Shown piece by piece: positions 11,701-47,929 of a DNA stretch of 64,000 bases; position 1 is the first letter of the stretch, and each line of letters begins with the position of its first letter. Source of the DNA: Antedon mediterranea (lineage: Eukaryota; Echinodermata; Crinoidea; Comatulida; Antedonidae); the NCBI RefSeq assembly GCF_964355755.1, contig NC_092678.1, positions 15,534,922 through 15,598,921 of the forward strand, in the 5' to 3' direction. A program made the position numbers and the translations under genes. Under the pieces are notes generated by a model that worked only from the letters and a program-made list of their open reading frames with translations, did no database searches and was not told where the DNA came from.

Positions 11701-11711
11701 TGGAGAGTCAC

Positions 11712-12750: not shown

Positions 12751-12756
12751 TCTATA

Positions 12757-14144: not shown

Positions 14145-14180
<36 letters not shown>

Positions 14181-16249: not shown

Positions 16250-16650
16250 AAAAAAGAAACAAATTGATTTAAGCTTACTTTTTGTCACGTTTTCTGTAAT
16301 TAATCGTCTTCTTCGCTCTCACTATCTGATTCGTCACTGTTCTCATCATCCGATTCTGTTTGAAGAGGCCCCAGCAAATCGTTATCGCCAACGCACCATC
16401 CGTTATTGTCTTGGGGTTTCGGCAACTCTTAAATCGGCGTTAGTGCGAGCTTCCAGATCATGACCAAGATAGTTCGATCGTGCGTCGTATATGTTGATGC
16501 AAGCATCTACGCGACGGTGGAAAGTTAGCTAAATCAATGTTTTTTAACACTGATTATCCGTCTTTTTCCTTGCATTTCCTGCGAAGAAAGTAAAATCTAA
16601 GTTCATCGGTACTCCTTGCTTTCGATCGGGATCCATATAAGACAGCGATG
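16250..16650 (-). pseudogene. Mirrored 3' part of the HAFTGCD-type gene, left arm
   Basis: This is the reverse complement of 16975-17457, so it carries the downstream part of the gene described next, facing the other way and without its upstream half. It includes a run of Asp/Glu/Ser codons near the gene's end (16310-16350). It has stops and small indels relative to the right arm. Confidence 0.65.
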
Positions 16651-16664
16651 TTTTTTTTTTTATA

Positions 16665-17457: not shown

Positions 17458-18206
17458 TAGGGTGCTTAAAGCAGCGCTAAGTAAACATATTCATACTGAT
17501 TTATCAGAAAAAAGTAACAATTATTTTATACATATAATTATTATTATATCGTTAGGCTACAGACCGCGTAAACAGCTTTTTTTAATTTCATACCGCCGGT
17601 ACATCTACAATTCGCAAAATGTACATACTAGTAATTATTTTTGGGGAAAACATCATAAATATATAATAAACCAAGTAATAATGCCCTTGATTCGATTCCT
17701 TCCTTAAATTGTATTTCTGAATGAATGAATGAATATAACAACAAAAAGCTTGCAGTTTGAAGTGCGAGTGTATCAATACTTATAGAGGGCGCTATCACAT
17801 TGTATGGAAGGTCACTTCAGATGACATGCAAAAATCACAATTTTCCTTTGTTTTTCATATTTATTTGACTTATTTTTTATCAAAATGACTTGTTATATAT
17901 GTGATACATAATAATACAATGTAATACAGATAATTAATACCATATTCGTACATTTAAAATTCACTTTTTAATACGAACGCAAATGTCGACAATGGCGTGT
18001 CATTCACTTATGCCCCATGACGTCATTTTTCGATGAAAACAAACCACGACGAAAGGAAGCAAAAACTGCGTATAAAAACTTCATTTTCTCTACAAATCCC
18101 AACTTTTACGCGACGCAACATCAATAAATGATCTTTACATAATGTTTAGAACCTACGGTGAGAATCTCGTTGACTACTAACGTTATGCAATGGTGAAGGT
18201 GATATT

Positions 18207-19709: not shown

Positions 19710-19711
19710 AT

Positions 19712-22628
19712 AATAATAATAATAAATGAAAACTTATATAGCGCCGGTATCCTCCACCCATGTGGCGCTCATGGCGCTTTGTGCATTAACAACGTGCGAG
19801 AACATCAGCGAATAGCGACGTCTTTAGGTTGGTCTTGAAACTGTTTAGACTAGTTGAGCATTTAACTGTTGCTGGTAAGCTGTTCCATACACTTGCGGCC
19901 GCAATGTAAAAAGATCTCTGACCCCACTGATTTTTTGCTCTACGCTCTTGAAGAAGGTTTTGTGACAATGATCGTAGGCCTCTGCGGGATGATTCGTAAC
20001 GATCCACAAGGTCAGATAAATAAGCAGGAGCACTGTCATTTAGGATCTTGAATACAAACAACGCAAGTTTGTACTTAATACGTTGTTGAACAGGCAACCA
20101 ATGCAAATCCATCAGAACAGGAGTTATGTGAGCGTTTGATTTTGCATAAGTTACAATTCTAGCTGCCATATTTTGCAAGCGCTGCAAACGTTGTATTTGA
20201 GATTTTGGTATGCCAAACAACAAGGCATTACCAATGTCAATTTTAGAAGTGACAAATGAGTGTACAATCAATTCAGCTGTTTTCTTGTTAAGATTACCGC
20301 GAATACGACCAAGGTTCCTAATCGATATGCATGCTGCTTTGGATACAGTTGTTATTTGTGCTTCCATAGTGAGATTACTATCCAGCATGATTCCCAGATT
20401 CCGGACCACCGATGAGGGAGCGATGTTAGAGTTTCCGATTCTGATATGTGTGATGTTGATTTTGGAGATGTTACATTTAGACCCGACGATAATAAACTCT
20501 GTCTTTCCATCATTCAACTTTAGGTAATTTGTTACTAGGTAATTGCGAACATCTTATATACAGGCTTCCATCTTACTGATTGCTGCAGCAACATCCCTTT
20601 GCACTGGATTTACTGACACATAAATCTGTGTATCATCTGCATAGAAATGGAAATGTAGACTGTGTTTGCGAATAATGTCACCAAGGGGAAGCGTATAAAT
20701 GGAAAACTGGCCAGGCCCAATTACTGACCCCTGTGGTACACCATATTCCAGGCAAGCTTCATCTGAGAATGCATCATTGATACAGACTAGCTGACGTATT
20801 CCTGTAAGATATGACTGGAACCAGTTAAGAGCAACACCATTTATGCCAATGCGATTTCTCAGACGGGTTATCAGTCTTTGGTGATCAACTGTATCAAACG
20901 CTGCTGACAAATCCAACAACACCAACAGCGTTATTTTCCCATCATTCATTCCTTGTAACAAATCATTCTGTACCTTTAAAAGGGAACTCTCCGTGCTATG
21001 ACATGCACGATATGCCGACTGGTAATTCTCATTTAAATTATGCTTTTGAAGATATGGAGTAATGCGTGATGTCACTACACGCTCCAGAGTCTTTCCAAGA
21101 AAAGAAAGATTCGACACCGGGCGGTAATTTTTCAGCGTGTTATGATCCAAGTTTTGCTTTTTTATTAAAGGACGAACGTGAGCAATTTTCAGTTCATCTG
21201 GCACTATGCCGGTATTAAGAGAATGGTTAATGATTTCCGTTATTATTGGAACGACTGCGTCTATACACTTCTTCAGTATAGAAGTAGGAACTGGATCTAA
21301 CCTGCATGATTTTGTTGGTGATTTCATCAGAATGTTGCGGATCTCATCTTGAGATGCTGGTGTAAATGTTGTGAGATGCTGATGAACAGCTGTCACAGGC
21401 TCATTAAATGACATGTCATCAATCTTGAAGTCGTCTCTGATGATCTTGATCTTGTCTGTGAAAAACTGACAGAACCTGTTCGCAAGATCTAAGTCAGAAA
21501 GACTATCTGGGAGAGGTGATACCTGGCGATGATGAAGGAGTTGGTTAACAATTTTAAAAAGTCCTTTCTGATCTGCTGCATGTTCTTCACACAAGCCAAT
21601 GTAGTAGTTGGCCTTTGCCTTTCTTAACATGGAATTTACATTCCTCTTCTGTGCAATGTAAGCTTGACGATCTATTTCCAGATGAGAGATTCTCCATTTC
21701 TTTTCAAGCTTACGCTTTGTTCTTTTCTCAGCATAGATGTCACTGTTATACCAACTAGTGCTTGGTCGGACCTTTACTGTTCTCTTTTTCGGTGGTGCGT
21801 GTTTGTCAAGAAGTTCACTCAAAGTGGTGACATATAGTCGTACTTTACTTGATAAATCAAGATTTGAGAGCGAAGTTCCGAGATCAGACTGTGTGATATC
21901 TTTACTTAATGTCTCAAAATTTATAGCATTCCAATGACGAGTTTCGATGGATTTAGTGATTACGGGTGGCTTCTTGATAAGGAGATTACATGTGATTGCA
22001 TAGTGATCTGATATACCATCAATGACATTAAGGTTTGAGAAAACAGGAGGATCAGATGAACGAGTGATCAGCAAGTCTAATGTGTGACCATGTCGGTGTG
22101 TAGGTGTAGACACATGCTGTTGAAGACTGCTTGCTACAAGTAGATTCTGAAAATGAATTGCATCTGCATCATTTGGCATATCCACATGGATGTTAAAGTC
22201 TCCAACGAATAGTATGGGAGCCGGCTTCAATACATAGTGATCAACCAAAGTTGAGAATTCTTCAGTGAAAACATTGAGACTGCAACCCGTTGATTTGCTT
22301 TGAGGACGATATACTGCTACGAGGAAAACTGAGGATGCATTGCTGACTATTTCCACATTTAGCAGTTCAAATGATTTTGGTAATAATCCCGTGTCATAAC
22401 ATTTAACCGCTATGCTTTCCTTGTAAAGAAGTGCAACTCCACCACCTCTTTTAGTACCAGCACGGGGAGCATGTTTGAGAGAGTATCCGTTGGGTGTAAT
22501 ATTTCCTATAACTGATGTGTCTTCTGGTTTAAGCCACGTTTCCGAAAGGGCAACAACATCCAGATTATGTTCGATAACGAAATCCACAAATTCTGTTGTT
22601 TTGTTCCGAACGGATCTTGTATAAATAG
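19712..22628 (-). mobile_element. CR1/L2-like LINE with endonuclease and RT, nearly intact
   Basis: The insertion lies inside the pol gene of the YR element. The minus strand starts at the endonuclease (RSVRNKTTEFVDF) and ends in a 3' UTR with a (TTA)n run at about 19712-19727. A short candidate target duplication, ATTT(A/G), flanks it. The 5' end is truncated just before the endonuclease, so any ORF1 is missing. Confidence 0.85.
19786..22605 (-). pseudogene. LINE ORF2 (AP endonuclease + reverse transcriptase), one premature stop
   Basis: One frame of about 930 codons is interrupted only by TAA at 20554-20556. The endonuclease shows LDVVALSETWLKP, RGGGVALLY, FLVAVYRPQ, ILFVGDFNIHVD, HTLDLLITR and GISDHYAI, so the catalytic Glu, Asp, Asn and His are present. 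RT shows YRPVSNLSFLGKTLERVV, SAYRACHSTESSLLKVQND, LLDLSAAFDTVDHQRL, YGVPQGSVIGPGQFSIY and FHFYADDTQIYV, with the YADD catalytic pair. The carboxy end has IQRLQRLQNMAARIV, LMDLHWLPVQQRIKYKL and ASVWNSLP. The stop falls between EACI and DVRNYL, just after the ADD box, so it may be a single substitution. The CR1/L2/Rex1 group fits best. Confidence 0.92.
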
Positions 22629-22695
22629 TTCTTTAGATACGTGTATGGACACAGTGCCATATGCTTATGTAGCTGTTCAATATTTATAGGGGTGG

Positions 22696-23896
22696 TTATT
22701 GTTGTTGTCCGTTTTTTGACCACCTGCACGCTGACTGTGAGTGGCCGCCTTTACATAACAAGCAAATGTGAGCTAAATTGCAGTTTCTCTTTACACACCC
22801 TCTATCACCGTTATAATTGTTGCAGATTTCTCTGCCTTGATGAAAGACGCGTCGTCGACCATACCAGTCGTTGTCTGCGTTAGGGATGGTCGTATTTCTA
22901 GTAGCTTTCTTAGGTAAGTTTTCGGATATATCGCAGAAGGCTGTGTAGTGTGCTGCTGCAATAGTTGCATGTGTTAGGGCGACTATTGGCAAAAATGTTA
23001 CAGAAAAGCGTGTTATTTCGTATGGACCAGTCGACAAGGACATTGTTGTATCTCAAATGTGAAGCCGCAATTAAGCTAAATTGTTTGTGATATTCATAAA
23101 AACCCTTTCCAGGGTATCGAGAAGCCATGTCTACAATGTCCCTTTCGTATTTGTCGAGCTCCTCTCTCCGCTGGGGGTGGGCAGTGCACATGATATTTTT
23201 ATAAATCCCAAAGGCTATATTGAGGGATTTTGCCAATCGTGGATCGTGTTTGAACAAATTAAGTTCATCTTTATTGTCTCGGGGTGAAGCATTGAATGAA
23301 GGAATTAATAGAGAAGCAAGATTAATGTTCCTACCTGATAATATTTTTTGGCGGATTGCAGGTGATATAGTTTCCACCATGGGCAGTGATTCCGCAGCGT
23401 ATCCAAACCTGGTACGTATGTGTGTTCCTCTTTGTGAGGATTCTTCAACAACAGTTGCCGACGTACTAGGCCGTTCGAATGACTCGACTGCTGAATGAAT
23501 GGAGAATGGCTCCAGTGTGATGTCCTCACTTGTCGGTGCTCTAGAGCTAGTGGCAGTATTATTGATTAGTGAAGGACTACCAACTGCCGGCTGTTGTTGA
23601 GAGCTCATCGAACTCACTTTTTGTGTCAATGATGCCACATTTTGTTGCAGATTTTGAACTGTTGTTGACAACTTAGAAACTAAGTCTATCAGTACCCTGT
23701 TTGTAGGATTTCTACTCTCGGCAGCTTGAGGTTCGATTGCTGGCCGAGCAATAGTGGCTTCATTGAATAAGCGCAACAACTGTGCTTTTGTGGCCTTTGA
23801 TGAGTGTCCAATTCCAAGTTTCTTAAGTTCACCTTTTAGTTTCGCTACTGACCAATTATCATACGGCGCTGGGCGTTTGCTTCTTGTTGGAGCCAT
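22696..23896 (-). pseudogene. Gag-like protein of the YR element: SAP domain, coiled coil, CCCH/CCHC fingers
   Basis: The ORF starts at 23896 (MAPTRSKRPAPYDNW). Residues ~13-48 form a SAP motif (VAKLKGELKKLGI, KATKAQLLRLF), a DNA-binding helix pair found in Gags of some DIRS-type elements. Residues ~68-100 (LVSKLSTTVQNLQQNVASL) look coiled-coil, and a Ser/Thr-rich stretch follows. At about 23040 the frame shifts. The second frame (23043-22696) carries the carboxy end with NNYNGDRGCVKRNCNLAHIC and CLLCKGGHSQSACRW, two zinc-knuckle-like cysteine/histidine clusters. It ends at a stop at 22696 followed by pol sequence. One frameshift makes it non-functional. Confidence 0.8.
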
Positions 23897-24139
23897 TTTA
23901 ATAATATCAGTACAATTAATGAAACTGCCGTTGAAGTATAATAAATGAAATTGTGTCTCGAATAAATTGATTACAGATTCGCTTGAAATGTTCTGAAATA
24001 CGCACAGTAACCAAAATGATACAATAAACCGTTGTATAAATACTCCAAGTAAGATGAACGTTTTGATGAAGGTTGAACGATTCCTATTATGGAAAATTAG
24101 TACTGAGATTCAAAGTAATATATCCACAAAGTATCCAAA

Positions 24140-30354: not shown

Positions 30355-30399
30355 CTATACTATGGCACGCCAGGACGGACATAACTATGACAAGTTGAC

Positions 30400-30720
30400 C
30401 TCGCTCGTGTTATGTAGACATCGCTCGTGTTGAGTTTAACACATCGCTCGTGTTATGGAGGCATCGCTCGTGTTGAGTTTACACATCGCTCGTGTTATGG
30501 AGACATCGCGCGAGTTGAGTGTATACACATCGCGCGTGTTGAGTTTATACACATCGCGCGTGTTGAGTTTATACACATCGCGCGTGTTGAGTTTATACAC
30601 ATCGCGCGTGTTGAGTTTATACACATCGCGCGTGTTGAGTGTATACACATCGCGCGTGTCGAGTTTATACACATCGCGCGTGTTGAGTTTATACACATCG
30701 CGCGTGTTGAGTTTTACACG
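30400..30720 (+). repeat. 24-bp minisatellite in the left terminal arm
   Basis: About 13 units of CATCGCGCGTGTTGAGTT plus TATACA, with CATCGCTCGTGTTATG variants nearest the tip. The complement lies at 47345-47705. Long ORFs on both strands are artefacts of the 24-bp period. Confidence 0.9.
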
Positions 30721-30807
30721 ATATAATCATGGCCGCCGGGGGTTGAGGGCGTTCTCAGCTGCGCAATCATCAGCAGGGAATTCCCATCAGCAGAGCTGAG
30801 AGGAGAA

Positions 30808-30986
30808 ATGGCGTCTACTGAAGGAATCTTAGATCCATTGGGACGAATTTATTAGATTAAATGATTCATTCGTTCATCGGACACAAATACTGTTGAAAGA
30901 ATACTATTATGGGAGGAACAGTGTAGGACATTCATCATCTAGGCCTAGCCTACATAATTGTTGCAATAGTAGTAGTACAGTAGTAC

Positions 30987-31018
<32 letters not shown>

Positions 31019-33475
31019 CTAGGGCCTCTTAGGCCTAGGCTAGTAGTAGTACTAGTTAGTAGTAGGGGGAATCTGACCTAGCCTAGCTAGGCCTAGCCCT
31101 ATGTATTATACTCTAGCCTAGGCTAGGTCTAGGCCTGGCAGACCTTTAAGTCTTATTATATGTCCAGGCCCAGCCAGCCTAGAAGGTCTAGGCCTAGGCT
31201 TAGTGTAAAATCAGGATAGGACAGGATAAAAATCTAGCCAAGCTAGGCCTGACCCAGTCTCATGACAGAAATTATGCATCTAGCTAGGACCAAGAGGAGG
31301 AGGCAGGGACGGCCTAATAATAGTAGACTAGGCTAGGCCTAGCCCACACCCAGCTAGGCCAACACTAGTCTAGGCCTAGAGTTACTTAGCTAGTACTACT
31401 AGTAGTAGAAGTATGGGCCCTAATAATGGAATACAGATCAACCCGTACACATACCAACTCGTATCCAAATGTTGGCTCACTCGTACCCAACATTTTTTGG
31501 CTTACCCCTACTACCATCATGTAGATAATACAATCATATAGGTCCAGAGCCAACGGACTAGCCTAGGCCTACTGCTATGCAAAATCTAGCTACAGGCCTA
31601 CAGTACCTAGTCTACTTTCTACTCCTGATTATTGATAGTCTGATTTAATGGTACTGAGCTATTAATTATACTAAAAGCCTAATAGAGGGTACTGTAGTAA
31701 GGTACAGTGGTATGTCAAACTTTGGTACATACAGAGGCATAGGTAGCCTTGGTTGGTTGTCCTCGGTAGGCTTTTGTTTTTCTTTTGACAATCTAATAAG
31801 GGACTGGGGAGGGAGAAGGAATGAGTTAATCAGACTTAAATGTTTTAGATATAAACCGAGAGTAATATGCAAAGTATTTATAAATGACAATTCCACTACG
31901 ATTCGACTGTAGTACAGCATTCATGTTGTACAGTAGTTCACATTATGAAACTAGAGTTCTTCATTTTGTATTTAATAGTTATATAATTTATGTTGATTTA
32001 ATGAATTTAGACATTTTGGGTCAAATCATTACAGACACTTCAGCACCTGACTCATCTAGTGGCAGACATACTCAAAATACTGCTTGATATTTTGCGAGGT
32101 ATTGGTCATCGTTTAGAAATAAAAGTACCATGCAAACCCACTTTGGTCAGGTCATACAGGGCGTCCCAGGTATTGTATGTGTTTAAATAAATGATCCTTT
32201 AAAAATCATGTAATAAAAAAGGTAATTTTTTTTATATATATTTAAAACATCAGTTGGTTCAATGTTTCCTGTCAAGGTTAGGCCATTGGAGAAGATTTTG
32301 AAAATAAATTGGCCCAGAGTATAAAAAAAACTGCTTGATACTCAATTGGATTTGTCTATGAGCCTGTTGGTTCTGTCTATCTCAAAGTAATATATCCTCT
32401 AATAAAATAAGAATCAACCAAATTACACTATAGTTTTAATTAAATACAAAAATTATTAATTTTTAAAAATATTTTTATTATGCTATAAGTTGATTTTCCC
32501 GATTACACTATAGTTTAAATTAAATACAAAAATGTTTAATTACTTATTTATACCCTTATATGGCTGGTATTGTTTTGATTTATTGTAACACACTGCCGTA
32601 CATGATTTTGTACTAATGAATGAAAAATGAAAATTTTCATAATACTGTAGTTAATAATCATGTAACCTTGCAAACTTGACTATTACATTTGTTTTTTTAG
32701 GTTGAAAAAATATTTGTTCCATATTTGATCCTGTTGAACGAGCTTTGCGATGAAGATCCACAATTGTGAGAAGAACCTACAATGTAACTGTTCCAAATCA
32801 ACTATGGTATGTATGCATCTCCATGGGTTTTACTATGATATTACTTAACTCAGTACTTGTATGCAAATGTAAGGCATTATTCAGGGCGTTTATATATGGT
32901 TTATATAAAACGATCTGTTTAATTAATGATATCTACAAACAAAACTGTAACTACCCATATTAAGCTTGTTGAAACCTAATCAACTTTCATTAGTTTACTT
33001 AAATGTTAGATATTTCTAGATATTTTTAGATTTAAGACTTTTGTCTGCATAAATAAAAGCATTTATATAAAGTCATACAGACAGACATACATATATTTTA
33101 TTTGACCTTTTGGTAATAAATAGACATTTTGTATGTTATGCGATTTTACCTTTTTTTTTTTTTGTGCAAAATAATTAGTACCTGTACAGTTACACATTTT
33201 TTACTAAAATGAATTTTGTTAATGATAAACTAACTGTGCGCAATGGTTTGAAAGCCAATGCACCTTGGCAAAATGTAATTTATCTTTTCTGTTTTTTACA
33301 GGCACATAGATTCCAACCACAAACTTATCTCATGGAGGTTTGTCTTTCATGGATGTATTGATGGGGAAACAAGATGTGTAATTTATTTAAAAGTTGCATC
33401 AAACAACACGGCAGGACAAATTTTAAAGTATTTTGAAAAAGGTTGCACAGACTTTAGTACTTTTTGTATTTTTAA
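30808..33475 (+). pseudogene. Inverted decayed copy of transposase exons 1, 2, 4 and part of 5
   Basis: Exon-1-like sequence starts at ATG 30808 (MASTEGILDPLGR, with a stop soon after). Exon-2-like sequence lies at about 32036-32171 (missing bases), exon-4-like at 32701-32808 (internal deletion and a TGA in place of Trp) and exon-5-like at 33302-33475, which breaks off before the second catalytic Asp. Exon 3 is deleted near 32500-32550. Intron sequence is also shared with the right arm, so the copy is genomic, not processed. It forms the inner part of the left inverted arm. Confidence 0.85.
30940..31450. repeat. CTAGGCCTAG-rich low-complexity zone (left arm)
   Basis: Dense repeats of TAGGCCTAGGCT and (AGT)n at 30966-31020. 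The matching zone in the right arm is at 44500-44850 and 46900-47100. TAGGCCTA is common across the whole window, which may be a genome-wide trait. Confidence 0.6.
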
Positions 33476-35058
33476 GAAATCTATTCTTCGTACTTTTAGA
33501 TGTTGTATTTTTTTATTTTGAAATATATATAAATATACTGTATTTTAAATTTAAGAGGTTGTGTCAAAATGCTTATTAATATTATAATCTTATTTATAAT
33601 ACTAAATTTTGATGTTTTAATATATAAGTGTATAAACAATTTTTAAAACTGTATCCATACTTTTATATATCTATGTATCTATGTCACTTTTTGTCTGTCT
33701 TGATGTATTTATGTAAAGCGCCTTTACATAAATTAAATAAAATAAAATATAAATAAAGTAAAGTATAAAAGTAGGCCCAACGTCAGCCATAGACTTGTTT
33801 ACCTGTTTATTTCCGAGTTGTTAGAAATATTTTTTTATTTAAAAAAGGCGGAAATGTGGCATGACAAATTTCAGAAAAGTGGGCTAGGTACAAAATAATA
33901 GTATAACTAGGCCCAGATATTTTGATATATAATTTACAGTATTTTATAGTAATATGAATAAGCTGTTGTTGAAAAATAAATATATATATTTAATAGCATG
34001 ATTTCCAACTTTATTAGATATTGAATGTTACACTAATGGCCCAGTTGATTATTATATTCTTGTGAAATATGCACCAACATGCATTTAAGATATATTGCCC
34101 TCCTTAACATTTTTTAATTGTTTTCACATATGCCATTTTAATGTTATATATTATTCACTTTGACGAATAATTGGATCAAGAAGAAAAAAAATTTCCTTGA
34201 AAAAACTGTAACAAAATTGACCAAAACAACAAATATTAAGTGTATATTCATACTTGAAAATTTATTGTAAGAATGGAACAAATGTATGAAAAAAAAAAGT
34301 ATTTCTTGTAAAATAAAAGACAGAATATGTCATATAATTATAAATAAAAATATTTTAATGATGTGGAATCATCAGTGACTAGGTCTCAATGAAATACAAA
34401 TAAAATAAGCAAAAAGCTTAAAATTAAAATTAATTTATGTTCTAAAAAACTGTTTTTTTTCAGGTAGGCCTAGATAATTTTTTTTTCACTTCTTTTTTTC
34501 GTCTGTACCTTTTATATTTGAATAAACTTTGAAATGTAAGTTTTGTAATAATTTAATTCTCTTAATTCTTAATTGCGTTCAACAACAACAAATACATGAA
34601 TTACAATTAAAAATTATTTAAATTTAAAGATAAGAGTATTCAGTAGTCATTCTTGTAGTATTCAGTTGTCATTCTTGTAGTATTCGTCTTTTGCCGCATA
34701 TTGAAAGAAATGTAACTACTGACAATTTGTTCTATTGCATTCATAAACATTTTGTATAATATTGAAGTTTGTGGGGGAGGGGCATGTCACAATAGCTAAT
34801 ATATTGACAGTACAGAAGATACTGCTAGTGAAAAAGGTCAACATTTTTTAGGGGGAGGGGAATTGGTTAGGGGGTCCATGGCCCCAGCAGCATTGCGCCC
34901 GGTATTTGTTCAGAGTCTTGTGTTAATGATCTCTGATAAAAAAAAAATTGCAGCATTTTTTTTATCTGCCCGATACCCAACACCTATATCAGATGACACA
35001 TTCCCTAACACAGGCAGACTAGCACTGGCAGTGATACAATTACAGGAGTATCCTAAAC
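33476..35058. other. Single-copy AT-rich region upstream of the HECT gene
   Basis: No ORF of note. It presumably contains the promoter of the HECT gene. A small tandem motif (GTATTCAGTAGTCATTCTTGTA) lies at about 34630-34690. The 70-codon ORF at 34863-35075 overlaps the HECT start and is not supported. Confidence 0.4.
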
Positions 35059-38000
35059 ATGTCTCAGCAAAATGAATTAACCAGGTTATTCAGCATTTTA
35101 AATCGCCAAAGAGAGATAGAAGATATATTTGGCCAATCTTCAAGGTATCTATATTTGAATATTTGTTTTCAACAATATATTTTATGAGCATTTGCCTAGG
35201 TCATGTTCATAGGCCTATGACTAGCCCATAGGCTATATATTCACCTCCCTGCCCTAACTAAGTTTAGCTAATTCCAGCATGGTCCTACTGCAAATTTGGG
35301 ACTGTACAAACAATCCATAAAAATCCAAAACGGCCTGAAGAGACCAAAACGCCCCTGAAATCTACAACAAAGACGAATGGGCATGTGAATTATAAAATCT
35401 CTCAACAAAAAGATTATATGGAATTATAATTTGTATTATTAGGATTTTCAAGAATCATGCTTATGAGCTATGTAGGCCTATGGTGCGCATCAAATGTCAA
35501 AAGTGGCATTTCTTTGGGTTAAATGGATTTGATTAATTTTTTTTTTTTTTGTGGATTAATTTGGTTAATTGTGACATTTCATTTATTTATGTAAACATAA
35601 CATAATTAAAAAATTTATTTTAAAATAATATTTATCTAATGATGAAATTCTTTAAAATGTCAATTGGTTTAGGCACCAAAAATCCCTGTGGTAAAATATA
35701 GTATGATTAAATGTGGTAAATTATTTGTGCAAAATAAGAATTTACAGTGGTTTTATACAGTGTTAAATAATAGTTATTCAAGAAGCATTTTAAATTTTGA
35801 TGGTCTTGCATTTATTTATTCTTATACTTTTTCCACAGGCCAACTACTGCAACTGTGGCTTCTACTACTTCCAACCCTTCTTCTTCTGCCCCTTCTACTT
35901 CCAACTATTTTACATCTGCCCCTTCTACTTCAAACCCTTCTACATCCACTGTGACTGCACCGGTTGTACCAAGATATCAATTTCAGGCAAACTTTAGACC
36001 TTCCAACACAAACAGAAGAAGAAAAAGAAATAGAAATGATGTGTAAGTGGTTTTTGAACAATTTATTCAATGTTGATAATGTCAGAATTAATCGTACCTT
36101 TCTCATTTTTAAAGATGTACCTCCCAAACATTAACATTAAGTTAACCAAAAAAAAAGAACATACCAAACAATGTTTTATAATGAATAAATTTACTTATAG
36201 TGGAACAAAATCCTTTTATTTATCATAAAGCAAGGGTAGTAGTGGACCATACTTCAGGGAAGTTGTCCTTGTTTCCGGGCCAGAAGTCAACACAGTGCCA
36301 AGACATGGTTCAAAACTGTTTCTCGCTCAGCATGGACATGTCAAAACAGGAGTGCGTTTTATGAAAGAGTGGGATGATCAACAGATTGTATCTAAACTCA
36401 AAGACCTTTTTCCAAGCCTTGGTGATGTTAAGTGAGCTACTTTACAAAATTTTAATTGAAAAAGTATTTACACTTATTGATTAGTTTATTGCATTAAAAA
36501 TGGTTTATTTGTGTTTGGTAATTGTTTAATTGTTTCACTATTATTGATTCAGATTCGAAATACTCTACAGCATAGGGCAGACTTTGGTAAAACCCCAACT
36601 TGAAAATGGACAGAAGATATCAGGATTCATTCTTTCCAAAATGATCAAGTACACTAAACCTGTATATCTACGACCTGAGCGGGTACTAATTGAAGGGATG
36701 GAACAAGTGGTATGAATCTTAAAATATTGTCTTAAGATATCAGGCCTTAAGTTTTTTGTTTTTTTTTAATATGTTTTGGCAAAATAATGTTTTTATTTAC
36801 AGATTGAAAGAGCAAAAAAGAGGTTGCCATCTCCACCGATGTTATCGGATGATGATATGGATTTCATGCCTTCAGAAAATATTTTTCCATCAACACGTAT
36901 GTAAATCATAACAATTAACATAGAATTACAACTATTATGTATTATGTTTATCACATTTCCAATACTACGGACTAGAAAAATGTGGCATTGTCCACTTAAT
37001 GAAAACAAAATTAGGATGGGGTGGCTTATTTTTATTTATTTTATTGGTGTTAAACATCATTTTAAAAATTATGTAGTATTTATATAAAAATATTGTTTAT
37101 TAAAGCATTAAAAAATCAGTCAGAATGTTGCTTTCTACTAAATTGATATATTAAACCTTTATGATCTTTTTATATTTTGTCACTATTTTAGTTGCTACTT
37201 CACTGTCGACTGTTACATCTACACCAGCCTCAACAGATTGCGCAGTTACATTATCATCAACCGCACAATTGTTACCTACACTGCCATCTGTAACTACCAT
37301 ACCATCATCAACACCTTCTTCAAGTGCAGGAGTTCCATTTTGCTCTTCAGCTCCAACAACTTTCAGAGTGTATGACAGGTTAGTATTGGATTTTAGATTT
37401 ATGAATTGTATGTACCTGTTATTGTTCGTTGTTCAGATGAATGCCAGCACCATATGCATATAACCACAACCCTTGTTTTCATTCAATTCTTATTTTAGTT
37501 TATTTGTTGAAGACACCGACTTTATCCAGTGTGTAATTAGTGATGATGATGATGATGTAGAAGATGCTAATGTCTTGTAAGTATTTTTTTTAAACGTTTT
37601 TAAGATAGCTGTACAAACAAGATAAGAATTACAGTTGTTTATCTCATTACATTTAGGCAAGATGATACATTGCTGAGCGACATTCTGGTAGAATTGTCAG
37701 GGAAAATAGACTACAAACTTCCACGGAATCTGTTCAATATCTGGAGAGGAAATGTGTGGGAAGGAGCGAAAATTGGATTTAACCGAAAAAGGTTCAACCC
37801 TTGTGCCCAGTTAGATGTGGTGTTTGCAGACAGCACATTGAATGTCGAATTTAGTGCGGAAGGGGCTGTGGACCTTGGAGGTCCCACAAGAGAATTTTTG
37901 ACGCTTTGTATGAAAAGCATGCAGGAAGGACGTTGTTTCATCGGAGATGAAAAACTTCTTACTAGAGATGCTGAAGGTGTGTTGCAATAATATACATCAT

Positions 38001-39634
38001 ATAGAATCCTCCTCTTCTATATCATATAGATGGAGTCAAAAACATACACTAATGCTATTAGAGAAAACAGCGTCATTGTTTTGTAAGATTTTTTGTGTCA
38101 ATGAAACCGTTTTTACACTTGAATTCTAATAACAGCCACTGAATTTAATTGGTTTTTACTGATATTTTTTTTTTCGCAGCCATAGCAGCACAAGATTATT
38201 TGTTATGTGGAAGAATAATCGCCACCTCACTGGTTCATGGTGGACCAGGTCCACATTTCATAGCTCCGATTTTATTTGAAGCGATTGTCAATGGGCCAGA
38301 AAAGGTGCATGTACCTTTAGAAGCACTGCCACCAAGTGAAGTGAAGGAATCACTGCTTCAGGTACAAACTAACATCTGCCTCATTCAATATGGAAAATGT
38401 GTCAAAGGATTCTTTTTAGTGCAAAATGAAATGTATGAAAAGTTAATTGGCATTTTATCTTAGGTTTTTTTTAGATATCTTACCTTTTCCCAATCCATTC
38501 CACTTATTTTGTGTTTGTGTACAAGGGCTGCAGGTTGTTAAACATTGAATTTTGTCTTTGATTTAAAGCTAAAAAATCTAACAGTAGTGCAATTTATTGA
38601 AGCATTGGATATGCCAACGCACAGTGCTTTGGCTACTACCATCGACAATGCCGGTAGTATGGTCAACGTAAAATCTGTCGAGGACATAGAAACTGTGGTA
38701 CAGAGAACAGCACAATACTTTCTCTTTGGAAGGACAGCTGATTGCTTAGATCAGTAAGTACTGCATTACAGTATTTGTTAACTGGACAAATTTAACCAGC
38801 CCCTCACAGTTACAGAAAGTACAACTAAATAAAACAAATACAAAACGATACCAAAGAAAACAAGGCAATTTTTGTTTTAAATTAAGTTACTATTTTGCAG
38901 GTTCAAATCAGGTCTATCCACACTTGGTGTTTTAGAAGCTATGCGACAACACCCTACAGCCTTCAAACAAGCATTTTTAAGAGAAGAAGCAACAATTGAT
39001 TTGAGGTTGATGAACAAACTGTTCAAGACAAAGATATCAGAAGATGATGACAAAAAAAGTACTGAAATGCGTGTCCTCAACCAGTGGAGGCAATTTCTCC
39101 AACAAATTGATGGTAATGAATGACAATTTTTAGCTAGATTACTATAGTACATAAACATTTAGCTCAGCATTAGACCAGACCAGATAATTTGTTTTATAAC
39201 AGGAAGACAATAACTGTATATTCCCACACTTTTTCTAAAATTGTGTGCAACAATAAAAATAGAGATGTGTACACACACATTTTGACAGCCTACTTTTCTA
39301 AGTTGAATACTTTCATATTATTTATTGTCATACCTGTAGTTACTATAGTTCTTGTTTATGCTATTAACAAAACATTTCTAATATAGATGATGAATGCACA
39401 ACATCATTCCAAGACATTTTGATGTTCGCAACAGGACTGCGGACCCTCCCTCCTATGGGATTTCAACCTGGCAAGCCAGAAATTCATTTCTTACATGGAG
39501 ATGCCAGCAAGTGGCCAAAGGCAAATACCTGTAGCTCTGTGCTACTGCTACCCGTAGTGCACAGCTCATTTGCACCATTCAAAGAGGCCATGTCTTTTGG
39601 CATTGGTAATGCCCAAGGCTTTGGTTTTGCCTAA
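35059..39634 (+). CDS. HECT-domain E3 ubiquitin ligase (G2E3-like), 12 exons, 717 aa
   Basis: HECT ligases accept ubiquitin on a cysteine and pass it to a substrate. Hand splicing with GT-AG introns gives exons 35059-35144, 35839-36042, 36231-36431, 36553-36709, 36803-36896, 37192-37378, 37499-37576, 37657-37976, 38180-38361, 38569-38753, 38901-39112 and 39387-39634. Together they are 2154 nt, open throughout. Residues 30-75 are Ser/Thr/Pro-rich and ~88-95 are basic (RRRKRNRN, possible nuclear signal). A second Ser/Thr-rich linker and an acidic DDDDD stretch (~330) precede the HECT domain, about 345-717. Its N-lobe has VDLGGPTREFL, its C-lobe LHGDASKWPKANTCSSVLLL with the catalytic Cys near 684, and it ends SFGIGNAQGFGFA, the usual HECT terminus. 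It lies inside the transposon, convergent with the transposase. The start is chosen because exon 1 then joins exon 2 in frame. Confidence 0.88.
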
Positions 39635-40182
39635 AGTTGGTTGGTTGGTTTTTTTTTCGTTTTGATTTCTGTTACAAAATATTTGATTTATGTACAATTA
39701 ACCAGATATTATATTTCAAATTCATGCCTGTACCTCTGCTTTAAAACCTAGATTTGTGATATTGTGTTTTTACTTTTTTTTTAATGAACAATCTTTCTCC
39801 TCTATGTCAAGGATGACTGATAGAAATCTTCAGATTGTACTTTATATACATTTATAAAAATATTTTTCACAACTTTAGATTTATTTATATATATATGCAT
39901 ATATGCTAGTGTTGCCCGAAAGCTCTGCTAACTTTTCTAGCTGTTTTACTTTATCGTTTTGATTTAGCTTTTCGGTTTTTTTGTATCTCCTTTGAGATCA
40001 AGCCACCCATACCCCCACAGCATTGTCATTTTTTCAGTAATTTGCCTTTGGATTTATATACAGTACATATATAAATCAATGTGTTGCGTAGCACTGTGTA
40101 AATTATCGCAAATTAGCTATGCTCGACGCGATTATGAGATCATGTTCCGAATATGAGAACTGTTTCTATAATTTACAGTATG

Positions 40183-40222
<40 letters not shown>

Positions 40223-41009
40223 CCAAAGATAAACACATCAGGCAAAGAACATTTATTATAAACCGCCCGGTGATATACTGAAATTTAATTATTTAATTTG
40301 AAATGATAAAGATGAGGAAATCTATATAAATATAGCCATTCTTAGTAACATAAGTATAACAAGGTTTAATTTATTAACACAACTCTAGTATGACAATATC
40401 AGTATGACAGCGAAAATCATGGTTTTACAGGCAGCATTGTTTAAATAAGAACTTTTTCCATGACATCATGCAAAGGGGTGACACATATATTCAGACTTTA
40501 CTGTGTATATACATTTGTAAAAATATGTTCTGCAACTTTTAGATAATATATAAATATATAGCCATTTTAAGTAACAAAGTTTAGTTTTTTAATTATAAAT
40601 GACTAGTTTTACAGGCAGCCTTGTTTAAATGCAGTAGAGTAGTGCAGCATAATAATAATTCCAACCTTCAATTAGCAATTTGTCTATAATGTTCACATAT
40701 CTTGATTTCTCTAATTAACAATTTAAACTATATACCCTCAATTATCAGTATAAAAACAATAAACTAGATTTAAACGAACTTGTCATCATGGCAACAAAAA
40801 ATACACTAAGTGTATTTAAAATATTTATCATACTGTACTGCAACTGTGTTATTGAAACTTGTTACACAAATATTGTTATATTGCATTTTCTGTAGATGGA
40901 TGGTATTCAATTTACTATCAAAGATTAAAGGAAAGGTAATTTTTGCAGTTTGAGACATTTTGAAGTTTGCTGTGTATTTTATATTATCCATTACAACCAC
41001 TCCATTAAA
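39635..41009. other. Spacer between the convergent genes, with a small TA-rich element
   Basis: No gene. At about 40047-40230, TTTGGATTTATATACAGTA faces ATATATAAATCCAAA across ~180 bp, ending in a (TA)n run at 40188-40219. It may be a small MITE. The ~100 bp after it match 10780-10880. Confidence 0.45.
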
Positions 41010-44000
41010 TTATTCATGTAATCTCAATGTCTCCCTTAATTGAACATAAAGGTCAATACCATAGTTACCATCATCATACAATGCATTAAAGTTGTCAAGT
41101 TCCTGAATAACTTGCTCATTTGGTTGAAAGGTAATCTGAGGAACACAAACATTATTGTTAGTTTGAATTTCAGGTACAGGACCATCATAATCAATCCCAA
41201 AATTATCAACATCCTCATTAAACAATACATGATAATTATTTTGTAATGTACCTCCAAGCCACAATGCCAAAGGAGATTGACCATTCATTGTACGCAGTCC
41301 ATGGTGATTCCACATGGAAATAAATTGATCTAAAGATTGCTGAATCCTGGGTTGGTAAACACTATGGAGACAGAATAGATCAAGGTCATCTGTCGAACAA
41401 AGCAGGTTATTATATTCTAAAAAACAAAATATATCTTTGTATAACCAGGAAACAACTCTGTTTGTTTCAGCCCAAAGTCTTTCAATACGCTGATTATGGA
41501 CGCTACGGCCAGCAATGAAACTACCTCTGTCTCCACCTCTATTATCTACCATAAATCTAGCTACATCAACATTTTCAGTTCCATGGTCTCCTCTCACTCG
41601 TGAAGGTATACCAAAGTCTGTGCAACCTTTTTCAAAATACTGTAATACTTGTGCTGCCGTGTTGTTTGATGCAACTTTTAAATAAATAACACATCTTGTT
41701 GCCCCATCAATACATCCATGAAAAACAAACCTCCATGAGATAAGTTTGTGGTTGGAATCTATGTGCCTGTAAAAAACCGAAAAGATAAATTACATTTTGC
41801 CAAGGTGCATTGGCTTTCAAACCATTGCGCACAGTTTATCATTAACAAAATTCATTTTAGTAAAAATTGTGTATACTGTACAGGTATACTATTTTTTTGG
41901 CCCAAAAAAAAGGTAAAATCGCATAACATACAAAATGTCTATTCATTAGCAAAAGGTCAAATAAAATGTATGTATGTCTGTCTGTCTGTATAACTTTATA
42001 TAAATGCTTCTATTTTTATTTATGCAGACAAAAGTCTTAAATCTAAAAATATATAAATAAATGTGTGCCTCTAACATTTAAGTAAACTAATGAAAGTTGA
42101 TTAGGTTTCAACAAGCCTAATATAGGTTGTTACAGTTTTGTTTGTAGATATTAATTAAACAGATCGTTTTATATAAACCATATATAAACGCCCTGAATAA
42201 TGCCTTACATTTGCATACAAGTACTGAGTTAAGTAATATCATAGTAAAACCCATGGAGATGCATACATACCATAGTTGATTTGGAACAGTTACATTGTAG
42301 GTTCTTCTCACAATTGTGGATCTCCATCGCAAAGCTCGTCCAACAGGATCAATAATATTTAGACGTTCTCTAATACGCGCACGTGGAACAAATATTCTAC
42401 GACCTAAAAAAACAATTTTAATATAGTCTAGTTTGCAAGGTTACATGATTATTAACTACAGTATTATGAAAAAAATGAAAGCGCAAATAATTTCTAGTTT
42501 TGTAAGTAGAGTAGGACAATTACGTGTCATCACTATCAACCCTCGCATGCCAAAAGTATCGACCTTTTACGAAAAGCAGTACAAAATCATGAACGGCAGT
42601 GTGTTATAATAAATCAAAACAAGACCAGTCATATAAGGGTATAAGGTATGAATTTGTCCTCTAGCTTAACTGAAAAACCGAGGAAATTCAGATTAGGCCC
42701 TCCAGGGACCCACCGCAATCAGCAGTGCAATATATAATATAATAATAATACAACTTCATGAAGTACATTTTTATGACATAGTTATATAAAATGATACAAA
42801 AAAAAAATGAACAACCTCACCTCTAAGCCCACCTATTACATATGTTTCACCAGACTGTGGTGCCAGATATAAAATATCAACTATATTTTGGTCCAAATCC
42901 TCATCAGATATGGTAGTGTAAGGATCATCAGGAATTCCAAGATGACTCCTATGTCTTCGTAGTGTCTTTGCAGAAACATGAAGACATTTTGCAATGTCCT
43001 TCCATTGCATCCCAGCTTCCCGAAGTTGTTCGATTTGGGCTTTGGTTATGTCATACCTGCACGAATAAAAAAAAAAAAACTTTTATTACATTTGTGGCTA
43101 CTATTAGGAAAATCAACTTATACTGTAACATAATAAAATTATTAAAAAAAATCAATAATTTTTTTATTTAATTAAAACTATAGTGTAATTTGGTTGATTC
43201 TTATTTATTACAGGATACATTTCTTTGAGATAGACAGAACCAACAGGCTCATAGACAAATCCAATTGAGTATCAAGCATTTTTTTAATAATCTGAGCCCA
43301 TTTATATCAAAATCTTCGCCAATGGCCTAGTCTCGACAGGAAACATTGAGCCAACTGATTAAATGAATATTTAAAAAAAATAAAGCAACCTTCATCCGAC
43401 TTCTTTTAAAGATGTATTGTCCCTTGAAACACAAAAAATGAAAAAAAAATATTCTAAATTGAAATTGGCCATATCAAAGTAATATTAAAGTTATTCACTT
43501 TAAGTCGAAAATTCGAGCCAAAAACAACAGTTTACGTAATTAACAGGTAAATTAATTAGATTACATTTCGTCTGAGAAATCGTCGCAAGCGAAAGTAAAC
43601 AAAGATTTCAAACCATGAGTATGCATTATGCATGATGCTAATTAGGATTGTACAACTCATCACGGTTGAGAAGGTGTTTTCACACAGATCGCGAGGAAGT
43701 TTTATGATTATGCATAAAGAGTAGCCAAACAAGCGCATTGCATTATGGGATATGTTTTGATTGGAAACTTTGACTGGAAGTCAAAGTTATTTTTTGAACA
43801 AAAAAACATCTGTATTTCGGTTAAATTTTTTTTTTTTGACTATTTTTTGGTGAAAGTTAATAACTATTATAATACTTCAAAATGACCCACTTTTTTTCGA
43901 AATTAAAAAAAAAAAAACTTTGGGGAATTAGTCAAAGGGACAATACATCTTTAAGGAAAAAGAATGACCTTTTTAAAGGATCATTTATTTTTCCACATAC

Positions 44001-47000
44001 ATTGCAATACCTACCTGGGACGCCCTGTATGACCTGACCAAAGTGGGTTTGCATGGTACTCCTCACTGCCTCTGATTTCTAAACGATGACCAATATCTCG
44101 CAAAATATCAAGCAGTATTTTGAGTATGTCCTCCACTAGATGAGTCAGGTGCTGAAGTGCCTGTAATGATTTGACAAAAAAAAAAAATGTCTACATTTAT
44201 TAAACCAACATAAATTAAATAATTATTAAATACAAAATGAAGAACTCTAGTTTCATAATGTGAACTACTGTACACAACATGAATGCTGTAGGCCTACTAC
44301 AGTCGAATCGTAGTGGAATTGTCATTTATAAATATTTTACATACTCTTACTCTCAGTTTATCGAATCTAAAACATTTAAGTCTGATTATCATCATTCCGT
44401 CTCTCTCCCCAGTTTTGGAGGGTCCCTTTTAAAATTGTCAAAAGAAAAACAAAAGCCAAGGCTATACCTATGCCTCTGTATCATGTAAGTTAGACCTACA
44501 CTACAGTACTCTATGCCTTTAGTATAATAGCTCAGTACCATTAAATGAGATTATCAGGAGTAAAGTAGCCTAGACCTAGGCCTGTAGCTAGGCATCAGTA
44601 GGCTAGTCCGTTGGCTCTGGACCTATGACTACGGGTAAGCCAAAAAATGCTAGGTACGAGTGAGCCAAAATTTGAATACGAGTTGGTATATGTACTTGTA
44701 TTCCAGTATATTAGTTAGGGCCCCTAGATAAAATAAGTAGCTCTAGGCCTAGGCTAGTAGTAGGCCTAGCTGGGTGTGGGGCTAGCTAGGCCTATACGTA
44801 ACCTCTAGCCAGGGCCAGGCCTACCAGCCTAGTAAATAGGTCCTCCCTGCCTATTATTAGGTATCCCAATGTAAAAATTCAAATTAATGATGGTACTTTT
44901 TCTTTCAGTTAATCAGAAGGAACTTACTGAACATAAACTTTTGCAATTTAAATGATTGAAATCGGATTATCCATTCAAAAGTTATGGTCCATTAAAGTGC
45001 CCAAAAAACAGTGATTTTTGCTTGAAAAACGGCACTTTTTCTAATTATATTTGAACCCATTTTTGAAGGGTTATAACTTTTATACTAATAATTTTAAAGT
45101 TCTTATTTTTTCCAAACCCATAGATACAACAGAGTTGTACAAGAATTTTTTTTTTTGGGTGTCCTCGACATTTTTTTTTTTAGATATCGCCCTCCAAAAT
45201 TCGTCCGAGGGCTTTTTACGCGTGATTTTCCCAATGTCTCAAAAATGCCCAAAAAGTTCCTGTCTTTAAATGATTCATAACTTTTGAACCAATGTGTGAA
45301 TTAACTTCTTTTTTTTTGCATTGCATAAAATTTAATATGTATTTTAGTAAGGTTATTTATATTGACAGGTAGGTAATTCTGAAATACAACATAAAATATT
45401 GTTAAAAAATGTTAAAATGTGAAAAAAAAAAATAATGCGTTAAAAAACTGTGTGGGTATTGTTTCTTTTCATTAAATATTATTTTTCGTAAGTATACATT
45501 TTTTTTTTAATTCTAGTATTTAAAGTTATATTTATAATCATATATTATTTTAATTGATTTTCGAACCGCCAAAAATAAGAATTAAGCCCGTGCTTATTAT
45601 GTGTTCGATTCCATTTGGAGCGCCGGGCCGAACGTAGACTCGGCCGCGCCTACTACAAGTTAAGTTATATAGGCCCCTAAGACTAAGGTCTAAATAAAAG
45701 CCTGGCGCTAAATTCTGCCTAAGACTAAGAAATATCGGGAAGAAATTTTTTATTTAACAAAGTAATTACCTCAATGGTATAATTGTAACATGTTTAATTT
45801 TATTTCCCTTTCGATTATTCTAACCGAAAGTTGCACTTTGAATTGAAATATACGGAATAAAATTTAGGCCTAGAAACAGCGTAGACATACAACGGCAACA
45901 CAGGCCAAAGCGCGTTTCGGCCGCCTACATAGAATGGCTTACGGCCGCTGCATAGCAAAATCAAAGCTTCTTAAATTTCTTCGGTACATTTCTTCCTAAC
46001 GTACTTGCTTTATATAGTAGATTTATAAATATTCCACTTATTAAATAATTTAATAAATCGGTAAAATTGACGTTTCGAAGCAAATATTCCATGAGAGGCG
46101 ACATTTTTCGACATGCCTCGTGTGCGGCGAAGACTAGTTCAGAAAATGGAACAGTCCACTGCAGGGGTTATCCAATCATTAATTAACGCGCTAATACATG
46201 CATACCATGCACATTGTCTGGGCGACGGTAATTTAGTAATAAGCGGAGAACTGAATCCCCCCCGTAAGGAAAATGGTAAACACTGATATTTTTGGTAGGG
46301 ATTATTTTTTTCAGTGGTTGGTCTTGTTGGCCTCTTCGCACGAGGTCCACGCAAAGTCAAATAAAACGATGTGGTTTATCAAACAAAAATATAAATTAGC
46401 TTCAATTCAATACTAAATTAGCCAAATTTTGATAATGAGAAAGACTAAAAAATTCAATTTTTATCGTTAAAATTGACATTTGAGGCGGATGTACATAATA
46501 ATAATAACCGATTTACATATCAAAATAAAGAGTATTTAAAGCCTGATAACATGCAACAAAAATTACTCCACCACCTATTATGGACCTCGTGCGATCGTGT
46601 TTTGAAAATGGGTAGGTGTTTTCCAAAGTTATTTTTAGCGCGCGGATTTCGGCTCGCCGGCTTTTGTACCTCATTTTTAACTCGAGTTTTCTATTAAAAT
46701 ATTTAATAAACATAGATTAAAAATATATGAAAATAATCCCTTAAACAAGATCTTTCCAGACATATAATTTTTTTTCACATGTGTATATAAGAAATAGTAT
46801 ATTTTTAACTTCAAAGACACGTCACTTTTTGAAATTTCACGAACGTGTTAAAATCGCGGTAACGAAAATCCGCTTCATTGGGATACCTACTATTATAGGC
46901 CTAGGCTTATCCTGATTTTAACACCAGGCCTAGGCTGGCTGGGCCTGGGCATAATATAAATAATGGGCTAATAATATAGACTTGGGTCTGCCAGGCCTAG

Positions 47001-47258
47001 ACCTAGGCTATAGGTAGAGTATAATAGATAGCTTTAGTATATGCGTCGGATTCCCCCTTTATAGGCCTACTAGCTAGGGCTAGGCCTAGGTCTACCACCT
47101 ACCTCGACACTGACTACCATTGCAACAATGTAGATGAATATCCTACAATGTTCTTCCCATAACCTCTGTATTCTTTCAACATTGTTTGTGTCCGATGAAT
47201 CATTTAAAAATTCACCCAATAGATCTATGATTCCTTCAGTGTATTCATTAAACGCCAT
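41010..47258 (-). CDS. IS3/retroviral-integrase-like DDE transposase, 5 exons, 475 aa
   Basis: Exons on the minus strand are 47258-47103, 44160-44015, 43056-42821, 42403-42271 and 41766-41010. All introns are GT-AG, exon phases fit, and the 1428 nt are open to the stop at 41010. Residues ~107-143 form a helix-turn-helix ([34 protein letters not shown]), as in IS3-like OrfA or Mor-type DNA-binding domains. The rve-type catalytic core follows: [12 protein letters not shown] (D~227), [14 protein letters not shown] (D~284) and [13 protein letters not shown] (E~319), spacing about 34 residues. The rest ([36 protein letters not shown]) is typical of this eukaryotic family. All three catalytic residues are present, so the enzyme could be active. 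Intron 2 carries a later TTAA element, and the large intron 1 carries a 2-kb element. Confidence 0.88.
43406..43954. mobile_element. TTAA-flanked element, copy C (549 bp) in a transposase intron
   Basis: TTAA 43406-43409, then AGATGTATTGTCCCTTGAAA. The right end AGGGACAATACATCT precedes TTAA at 43951-43954. It matches copy B without the nested element. The left arm of the host transposon lacks it (near 32220), so it arrived after the arms formed. Confidence 0.9.
44858..46889. mobile_element. 2.0-kb element with TAGGTATCCCAATG ends, TSD CTATTAT
   Basis: The left end TAGGTATCCCAATG is mirrored at 46876-46889. CTATTAT lies directly outside both ends (44851-44857 and 46890-46896). The left arm of the host transposon has no counterpart, so it is a later insertion. 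The interior is AT-rich with short GC-rich islands (about 45600-45660 and 45900-45960) and one small ORF (46113-46286). The superfamily is unknown. Confidence 0.75.
46113..46286 (+). CDS. Small ORF or first-exon remnant, 57 codons
   Basis: It reads [20 protein letters not shown] and continues through a helical, Ala/His-containing stretch to [11 protein letters not shown] good splice donor (ATG|GTAAAC) lies just before the stop, so it could be the first exon of the element's lost transposase. It is GC-richer than its surroundings. I do not recognise the family. Confidence 0.35.
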   Translation: MPRVRRRLVQKMEQSTAGVIQSLINALIHAYHAHCLGDGNLVISGELNPPRKENGKH

Positions 47259-47344
47259 TTCTACAGTCTGATTTCTCTCACTTTCTTTGACAAGAGAGAG
47301 AATTGAAGAAAGGACGAGAACCGGAAATTCTAGCCACGCCTCAT

Positions 47345-47705
47345 CTCTCGATATGCGCGATGTGGAAAAACTCAACACGCGCGATGCGTAAAAACTCGAC
47401 ACGCGCGATGTGCAAAAACTCAACACGCGCGACGTGTATAAACTCAACACGCGCGATGTGTATTCACTCAACACGCGCGACGTGTATAAACTCAACACGC
47501 GCGATGTCAACATAACACGCGCGATGTCAACATAACACGCGCGACGTGCAAACTCAACACGCGCGATGTCAACATAACACGCGCGACGTGTAAACTCAAC
47601 ACGCGCGATGTCAACATAACACGAGCGATGTACAAACTCAACACGAGCGATGCCTCCATAACACGAGCGATGTGTTAAACTCAACACGAGCGATGTCTAC
47701 ATAAC
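47345..47705 (-). repeat. Minisatellite in the right terminal arm
   Basis: Complement of the left-arm minisatellite (units AACTCAACACGCGCGATGTG, with ATAACACGAGCGATG variants near the tip). The unit number and order differ from the left arm, so the arrays have changed independently. Confidence 0.9.
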
Positions 47706-47929
47706 ACGAGCGAGGTCAACTTGACATAGTTATGTCCGTCCTGGCGTGCCATACTATACTTATCACACCCCACACTGCTTTTTTGAAAACAAACGCTTCC
47801 CAGAACAAATTCAACTTCTAATGAGAAGAGTATACATAGCTAAGTATAGGCCTATAGGGTATAAGTACGTTGTAAACTTTGTAAATGAATAGGTGTCATA
47901 TAGGCTGATAATTAAAATATCTAATTTTG

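Follow-up and report, generated by a model that had tools for sequence, protein, structure and literature searches.

A HECT ubiquitin ligase gene within an IS3EU-type DNA transposon of the crinoid Antedon mediterranea

Organisation of the element and its two genes

The window analysed here is a stretch of 64,000 nucleotides from the crinoid Antedon mediterranea (RefSeq assembly GCF_964355755.1, contig NC_092678.1, positions 15,534,922 to 15,598,921 of the forward strand). It contains an element of 17,393 bp at window positions 30361..47753 (strand not assigned), which carries a transposase gene and, as its second gene, a gene for a ubiquitin ligase of the HECT type. The element opens with TATGG and closes with CCATA; its tips, TATGGCACGCCAGGACGG and the reverse complement, match at 18 of 18 positions, and it is flanked by two copies of CTATAC (30355..30360 and 47754..47759, both + strand), identical at 6 of 6 positions and recognised as a target-site duplication (TSD) by flank comparison and by the related empty site described below. 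A complete 17.4-kb transposon with these tips and this duplication had been proposed in an earlier note made from the letters alone, and its boundaries are exact to the base.

The terminal inverted repeats extend for about 355 bp with 87% identity. The left one (30361..30715, + strand) carries subterminal repeats of 20-24 bp, and the right one (47391..47753, - strand) carries subterminal repeats as well. Fourteen copies of a 12-base subterminal motif lie within the left 400 bp and 12 inverted copies within the right 413 bp; the rest of the window has none on either strand. Counted from the tip, the first six copies stand at the same positions at both ends (40, 60, 83, 103, 125 and 145). These arrays are likely to be binding sites of the transposase. 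Further inside lies another inverted duplication, whose arms reach about 3 kb at most, in pieces that are 76-94% identical (left arm, 31334..33459, + strand, element positions 974-3099; right arm, 41609..44794, - strand, element positions 11249-14434). The left arm bears an incomplete second copy of the transposase gene in inverted orientation (30817..33455, + strand), whose pieces match transposase residues 7-42, 48-82, 86-102, 195-226 and 225-275. This copy is broken: it has no match to the exon with the helix-turn-helix (HTH)-like region and stops at residue 275, short of the second D and of the E in the catalytic triad.

The two genes converge, the HECT gene running rightward (35059-39634) and the intact transposase gene leftward (47258-41010), so that their 3' ends face each other across a gap of about 1.4 kb. 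Exon models of both were built by splice-site inspection. The transposase gene has five exons on the - strand (exon 1, 47103..47258; exon 2, 44015..44160; exon 3, 42821..43056; exon 4, 42271..42403; exon 5 with the stop codon, 41010..41766), and its 1428 nt, coding for 475 amino acids, are open throughout, with all four introns of the GT-AG type. Pfam scans place an HTH-like region in exon 3, under the Pfam cut-off, and a PF24764 rva_4 core in exon 5 (E 3.5e-74 with a 473-aa draft model); a PF00665 rve match is likewise under the cut-off, and no integrase zinc-binding domain is among the Pfam matches. The catalytic triad consists of D227, D284 and E319, all in exon 5, and the 34 residues between D284 and E319 give the DD34E pattern. 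A repeat within intron 2 (about 43406-43961, element positions 13046-13601) recurs elsewhere in the window and is probably a nested element.

The HECT gene has twelve exons on the + strand (exon 1, 35059..35144; exon 2, 35839..36042; exon 3, 36231..36431; exon 4, 36553..36709; exon 5, 36803..36896; exon 6, 37192..37378; exon 7, 37499..37576; exon 8, 37657..37976; exon 9, 38180..38361; exon 10, 38569..38753; exon 11, 38901..39112; exon 12 with the stop codon, 39387..39634). Its 2154 nt, coding for 717 amino acids, are open throughout, and 11 of 11 introns are GT-AG. The protein begins with a basic, Ser/Thr-rich region (the Ser/Thr-rich part in exon 2), followed by a conserved N-terminal module (exons 3 and 4, supported also by alignment) and, after an acidic linker, by the C-terminal HECT domain, with its N-lobe in exon 8 and its C-lobe, including Cys684 (codon 39530-39532), in exon 12. 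The N-terminal module resembles the N-termini of full-length relatives, among them P0002, P0003, P0007, P0016 and P0025. An NCBI protein of Antedon mediterranea named 'G2/M phase-specific E3 ubiquitin-protein ligase-like' (P0001) equals the C-terminal 489 amino acids letter for letter; it begins after the N-terminal module and includes the 78-nt exon 7.

The Pfam HECT domain is matched above its cut-off of 23.9 bits, both by a draft model of the protein (49.2 bits) and by P0001 (51.9 bits). AlphaFold2 on P0001 gives a confident HECT domain, with a mean pLDDT (predicted local distance difference test) of 79.7, 321 residues at or above 90, and 114 residues below 50 which lie mostly in the linker. 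Foldseek with this model ranks HECT domains first, the best being those of Smurf1 and HUWE1 (E about 1e-11; template modelling score 0.62-0.67 by target length). Cys684 lies in the motif ANTC, which aligns with the C-lobe of UBR5, and a cysteine at this column is kept in 32 of 36 aligned HECT proteins including that of the window. Cys684 is predicted to carry ubiquitin transfer. The open lengths of the two spliced genes, the DDE triad and the catalytic-type cysteine had all been read correctly in the earlier note, as had the IS3-like identity: the rva_4 core, the TATGG..CCATA tips and the 6-bp TSD support assignment of the element to the IS3EU type. No relative was found when IMG/VR was scanned with the HECT and transposase alignments (A1, A2), and none of the 10 matches of a dedicated search is a fused transposase-HECT protein.

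Insertion site and recurrence of the gene pair

The two flanks of the element, 200 bases each, connected through one CTATAC, match C9:15398852-15399246 without interruption at 98% identity, 166 kb from the element on the same contig. The differences are two substitutions (columns 32 and 84) and a gap of 5 bases (columns 57-61), all in the outer left flank, and the junction region is identical. The single CTATAC at this empty site gives the same boundary as the element itself. The insertion site belongs to a repeat family with at least 51 matches (40 of 483 candidates scored), and two further paralogous sites that were aligned, on contigs C11 and C1, are also uninterrupted, the latter differing at the final base of CTATAC. 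Since the paralogous empty site is nearly identical, the element is a young insertion, later than the duplication of the site, unless C9:15398852 represents a precise excision. The earlier note had suggested that the element is recently active and possibly autonomous; this site bears out a recent insertion, and the element may be autonomous.

The element tip occurs, with up to three mismatches, 95 and 91 times in the genome, against 24 and 14 times for a reversed control. Among the roughly 100 of 186 tip places that were listed, no other inward-facing pair of exact tips less than 20 kb apart exceeds 4 kb. One short, internally deleted copy on C1 (L005:1501-1780, 280 bp), resembling a miniature inverted-repeat transposable element, shares the tips of the element and is flanked by an exact 6-bp duplication, CGTCTG; in two other tip pairs (L002 and L008) the flank duplications match at only 5 and 3 of 6 positions. 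Contig C3 holds a truncated copy of part of the element, 94-98% identical, as well as an older HECT relic. Between the C3 copy and the element, exons differ at 9 of 1755 positions and introns at 30 of 2208 (Fisher p 0.009).

The genome gave at least 56 matches to the transposase protein, at least 77 to rva_4 and at least 106 to the Pfam HECT domain, which were clustered into 52, 62 and 47 loci, respectively. A HECT match lies within 10 kb of 24 of the 52 transposase-protein loci (0.15 expected under random placement) and of 29 of the 62 rva_4 loci (0.18 expected). Seventeen of the 24 pairs are convergent, tail-to-tail, and in 14 of these the matches are 1.1-1.7 kb apart. Eight dispersed loci of family X show spacings of 1294, 1308, 1309, 1310, 1310, 1314, 1317 and 1317 bp, and three dispersed loci of family Y1 spacings of 1441, 1442 and 1442 bp; members of each family were recognised by having the same match ranges, scores and spacing, and one locus of each was read. 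Such near-constant spacing on different contigs indicates that the HECT and transposase genes moved together.

Paired lineages that were read are Z (L031), X (L032), X2 (L038), Y1 (L033) and Y2 (L039). In X2 the HECT lies 6.6 kb from the transposase, and the pair, included in the counts, may belong to two elements. A locus at C8:5.17 holds HECT and transposase relics in the arrangement of the window; in lineage T (L037) the two genes have the same orientation, in lineage S (L035/L036) they are divergent, and L034, a copy of Z, retains only part of the HECT. The HECT profile, built without P0014 and P0044-P0046, reached no score above 7.2 on 47 kb of reversed sequence, and matches scoring at least 8 were used. 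A scan of five loci for TA tips with a TSD found no ends for the other families; one AT-rich candidate end at C8 is weak and is not believed. At C6 (G000:C6:31605812-31615575) two HECT and transposase units stand side by side, by local duplication or nested insertion. Beside the HECT exons of the C5 family, on the same strand, lies an open reading frame with a SAM domain (L035:1228-1848, - strand), to which the N-terminus of the L035 transposase is similar by eye, without a SAM match of its own.

With several diverged transposase lineages of the genome carrying a HECT gene, the pairing singled out in the earlier note extends beyond a single capture, and the ligase appears to be a standard component of these transposons in the Antedon genome. 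Several observations weigh against this interpretation. Because the loci within a family are copies of each other, the pair counts are not independent, and eight of the nine lineages read were chosen through a HECT match or are the window itself. Of the 62 transposase loci, 33 have no Pfam HECT match within 10 kb; three of these (C8:19959174, C11:12468203 and C3:19247494) lie 13-18 kb from a HECT. Four of the 33 were read, and three hold HECT sequence: at C5:18782495 a HECT and at C8:21793437 a HECT remnant had been missed by the Pfam search, and C3:13533136 is the truncated window copy, found through its HECT, whose HECT region lies 4 kb away and lacks exons 7 and 12 together with parts of other exons. 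At the fourth, C11:20732443, there is no HECT in the 5 kb examined on the 3' side. The dN/dS ratio with the C3 copy is above 1, a value based on 1.5 synonymous and 7.5 nonsynonymous changes, too few to be usable, and on a copy from which exons have been lost.

Distances between transposases and between HECTs also correlate weakly (Mantel r 0.19, p 0.09; r 0.35, p 0.08 without two lineages), and fixed co-descent of the two genes is unsupported. The transposases of X and X2 are 70% identical and their HECTs 15%, so that either the HECT genes were swapped or one of the pairs arose by chance. Across lineages HECT divergence exceeds transposase divergence, which together with the weak correlation suggests that HECT genes may have been exchanged or acquired repeatedly.

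Elsewhere in the window, a retroelement cluster at 14502-24109 (- strand) contains a tyrosine-recombinase match (25.0 bits, under the Pfam cut-off of 27.1), a reverse transcriptase (18780-19733) and an open reading frame with endonuclease and reverse transcriptase (20557-22632); presumably it is a DIRS-like element with a non-LTR (long terminal repeat) element next to it or inside it. Another reverse-transcriptase fragment lies at 6514-7356 (- strand). At 63618-63998 (+ strand) a frame of 127 amino acids with a Gal-3-O-sulfotransferase match runs to the window edge and is probably the start of a host gene.

Known systems and relatives in other species

Like members of the IS3EU (IS3EU/GingerRoot) superfamily of Repbase (PMC10045372), the element has TA..TA ends, a 6-bp TSD, a DDE transposase of the IS3/rve type and an HTH-like region before the core without an integrase zinc-binding domain among the Pfam matches. 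It differs in its length of 17.4 kb, in its inverted transposase fragment and in its HECT gene, which the available description of IS3EU does not mention. Fungal TET+ IS3EU families (PMC12730594) share the 6-bp TSD and the ends, TAYGG..CCRTA including TATGG..CCATA, and have a second gene, an alpha-kinase, opposite to the transposase. Their accessory genes are the alpha-kinase and a TET/JBP dioxygenase, whereas the present element carries a HECT and has an animal host; the words HECT and ubiquitin are absent from the main text of that paper. Helitrons encoding VTD/OTU deubiquitinases (PMC9741609) are likewise transposons with a ubiquitin-pathway enzyme, but they are rolling-circle elements, the enzyme lies inside the Helitron reading frame, and it removes ubiquitin rather than ligating it. 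A literature search, with Repbase and most subscription journals outside it, found no paper combining HECT, transposase and terminal inverted repeats, and none combining HECT, DNA transposon and IS3EU. Within the literature searched, IS3EU elements, fungal families with an alpha-kinase opposite the transposase and transposon deubiquitinases are already known, and a HECT in IS3EU was not found.

The nearest HECT relatives with species names are from fish, frog, beetles, corals and acorn worm, and transposase relatives occur in corals, sea anemone, fish, beetles and tubeworm (among 120 of 983 matches listed, with names on about a quarter of the proteins). The label 'G2/M phase-specific E3 ligase-like' is borne by proteins of fish, corals, acorn worm, firefly and Antedon. 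In the firefly Abscondita terminalis, a HECT protein (P0025, FQR65_LT14317) and an rva_4 transposase (P0163, FQR65_LT14316) have consecutive tags and are both on a contig listed at 141,530 bp, and their genes would accordingly be neighbours. One fish study reports a G2E3 match among unclassified repeats (PMC5638112).

Vertebrate G2E3 and G2E3-like proteins have a HECT domain in one group with that of the window. The HECT tree joins vertebrate G2E3 to the fish G2E3-like P0007 and the unnamed P0030 (support 99/99); this group lies among the mobile-type HECTs, separate from two host HECTs (100/99). The branch placing the G2E3 group has moderate support (92/86) in a tree with six long-branched rows, with P0014 excluded, and with an uncertain root set by a small, partial and long-branched outgroup (L040 and L041). 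The three true G2E3 proteins (P0044-P0046) have no cysteine at the catalytic column, which is kept in 32 of the 33 other rows, the exception being a truncated model. They also carry extra N-terminal Pfam domains ahead of the HECT, PF13771 and others, which we take to be of the PHD type; in contrast, the transposon HECT keeps the cysteine, and no PHD- or RING-type domain was matched before the HECT in the pieces of the window protein scanned, exon 1 not among them. According to Marin (2010), only two HECT subfamilies, G2E3 among them, originated after chordates and echinoderms had separated. On these sequence comparisons it is plausible that the G2E3 HECT derives from a transposon by domestication. 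A wider proposal is rather less likely than not: animal IS3EU elements may form a widespread ubiquitin-armed class in which HECT genes were acquired or swapped repeatedly because a ligase pays, and from one of which the vertebrate G2E3 HECT came before losing its catalytic cysteine.

Possible role of the ligase and alternative explanations

The locus is probably a complete young cut-and-paste transposon of the IS3EU type whose second gene is a HECT ubiquitin ligase. Its ends, the target duplication, the related empty site, the two intact genes and the recurrence of the pair across diverged lineages are direct observations. By analogy with the family, the transposase would bind the subterminal repeat arrays at both ends, cut at the TA tips in cut-and-paste fashion and join the cut ends to a target staggered by 6 bp. 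Cys684 would transfer ubiquitin to the benefit of the element. The role of the protein is the least certain part of the interpretation: we tentatively suggest, at somewhat less than even confidence, that it is a functional E3 of benefit to the element. The most likely target of its ubiquitination would be a nuclear host factor that holds transposition back, with the N-terminal module as substrate reader. A host target is favoured because the HECTs differ widely between lineages, as partners in conflict would.

The main rival to a host target is regulation of the transposase, in which the ligase would act on the transposase itself and limit its dose, as a self-regulator rather than an anti-host weapon. 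RAG-like transposons belong to another transposase superfamily than IS3EU. They offer a known precedent of a two-gene element with the second gene beside and convergent with the transposase gene, that gene being RAG2-like instead of a HECT ligase (PMC7204232), and the close convergent spacing of 14 of the 17 tail-to-tail pairs is in keeping with such a role. The greater divergence of HECTs than of transposases would, however, be unexpected for a fixed target inside the element, and self-regulation appears rather unlikely.

Slightly less probable again is a composite transposon made of two IS3EU units in inverted orientation with the HECT as cargo between them, where the units or the entire structure would be mobile. 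At eleven of the 21 transposase-linked HECT loci, the window and much of family X among them, transposase sequence directed inward flanks the HECT on either side within 20 kb, although two of these loci are neighbours on C6 that may count each other's genes, and the inverted arms of the window fit the same picture. The unit may therefore consist of a HECT gene flanked by two inverted arms that carry transposase sequence, the left arm being truncated in the window. Two complete flanking transposase units are not present there, since the left copy is broken, and no inner ends were noticed in the window, where no search aimed at them was made; families Y1, Y2 and Z and the C8:5.17 relic show a single transposase.

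That the HECT is a passenger, captured once in this copy and of no relevance to the transposon, would agree with the element being the only listed exact-tip pair above 4 kb; it is very improbable and is rejected for this genome, as HECT genes accompany several diverged transposase lineages and C3 holds both the 94-98% copy of the HECT region and the older relic. Host HECT genes that happen to adjoin insertion sites can be dismissed almost entirely: 26 of the 47 HECT loci lack a transposase within 10 kb, and most of these are probably host genes, yet the 29 coincidences against 0.18 expected, the near-constant spacing within families and an empty site that lacks the whole 17.4 kb, HECT included, reject this explanation.

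An IS3EU-type transposon with a recurrent HECT ligase therefore remains the preferred reading. Some viruses write ubiquitin. Transposons are reported to carry deubiquitinases (PMC9741609) and DNA-demethylating enzymes (PMC12730594). If a recurrent E3 ligase is indeed part of these elements, DNA transposons would also write ubiquitin, and the Antedon element would be a concrete system for finding the target. It would further explain why 'G2/M phase-specific E3 ligase-like' names are attached to proteins of such distant animals as those listed above, and would provide a testable origin for vertebrate G2E3.

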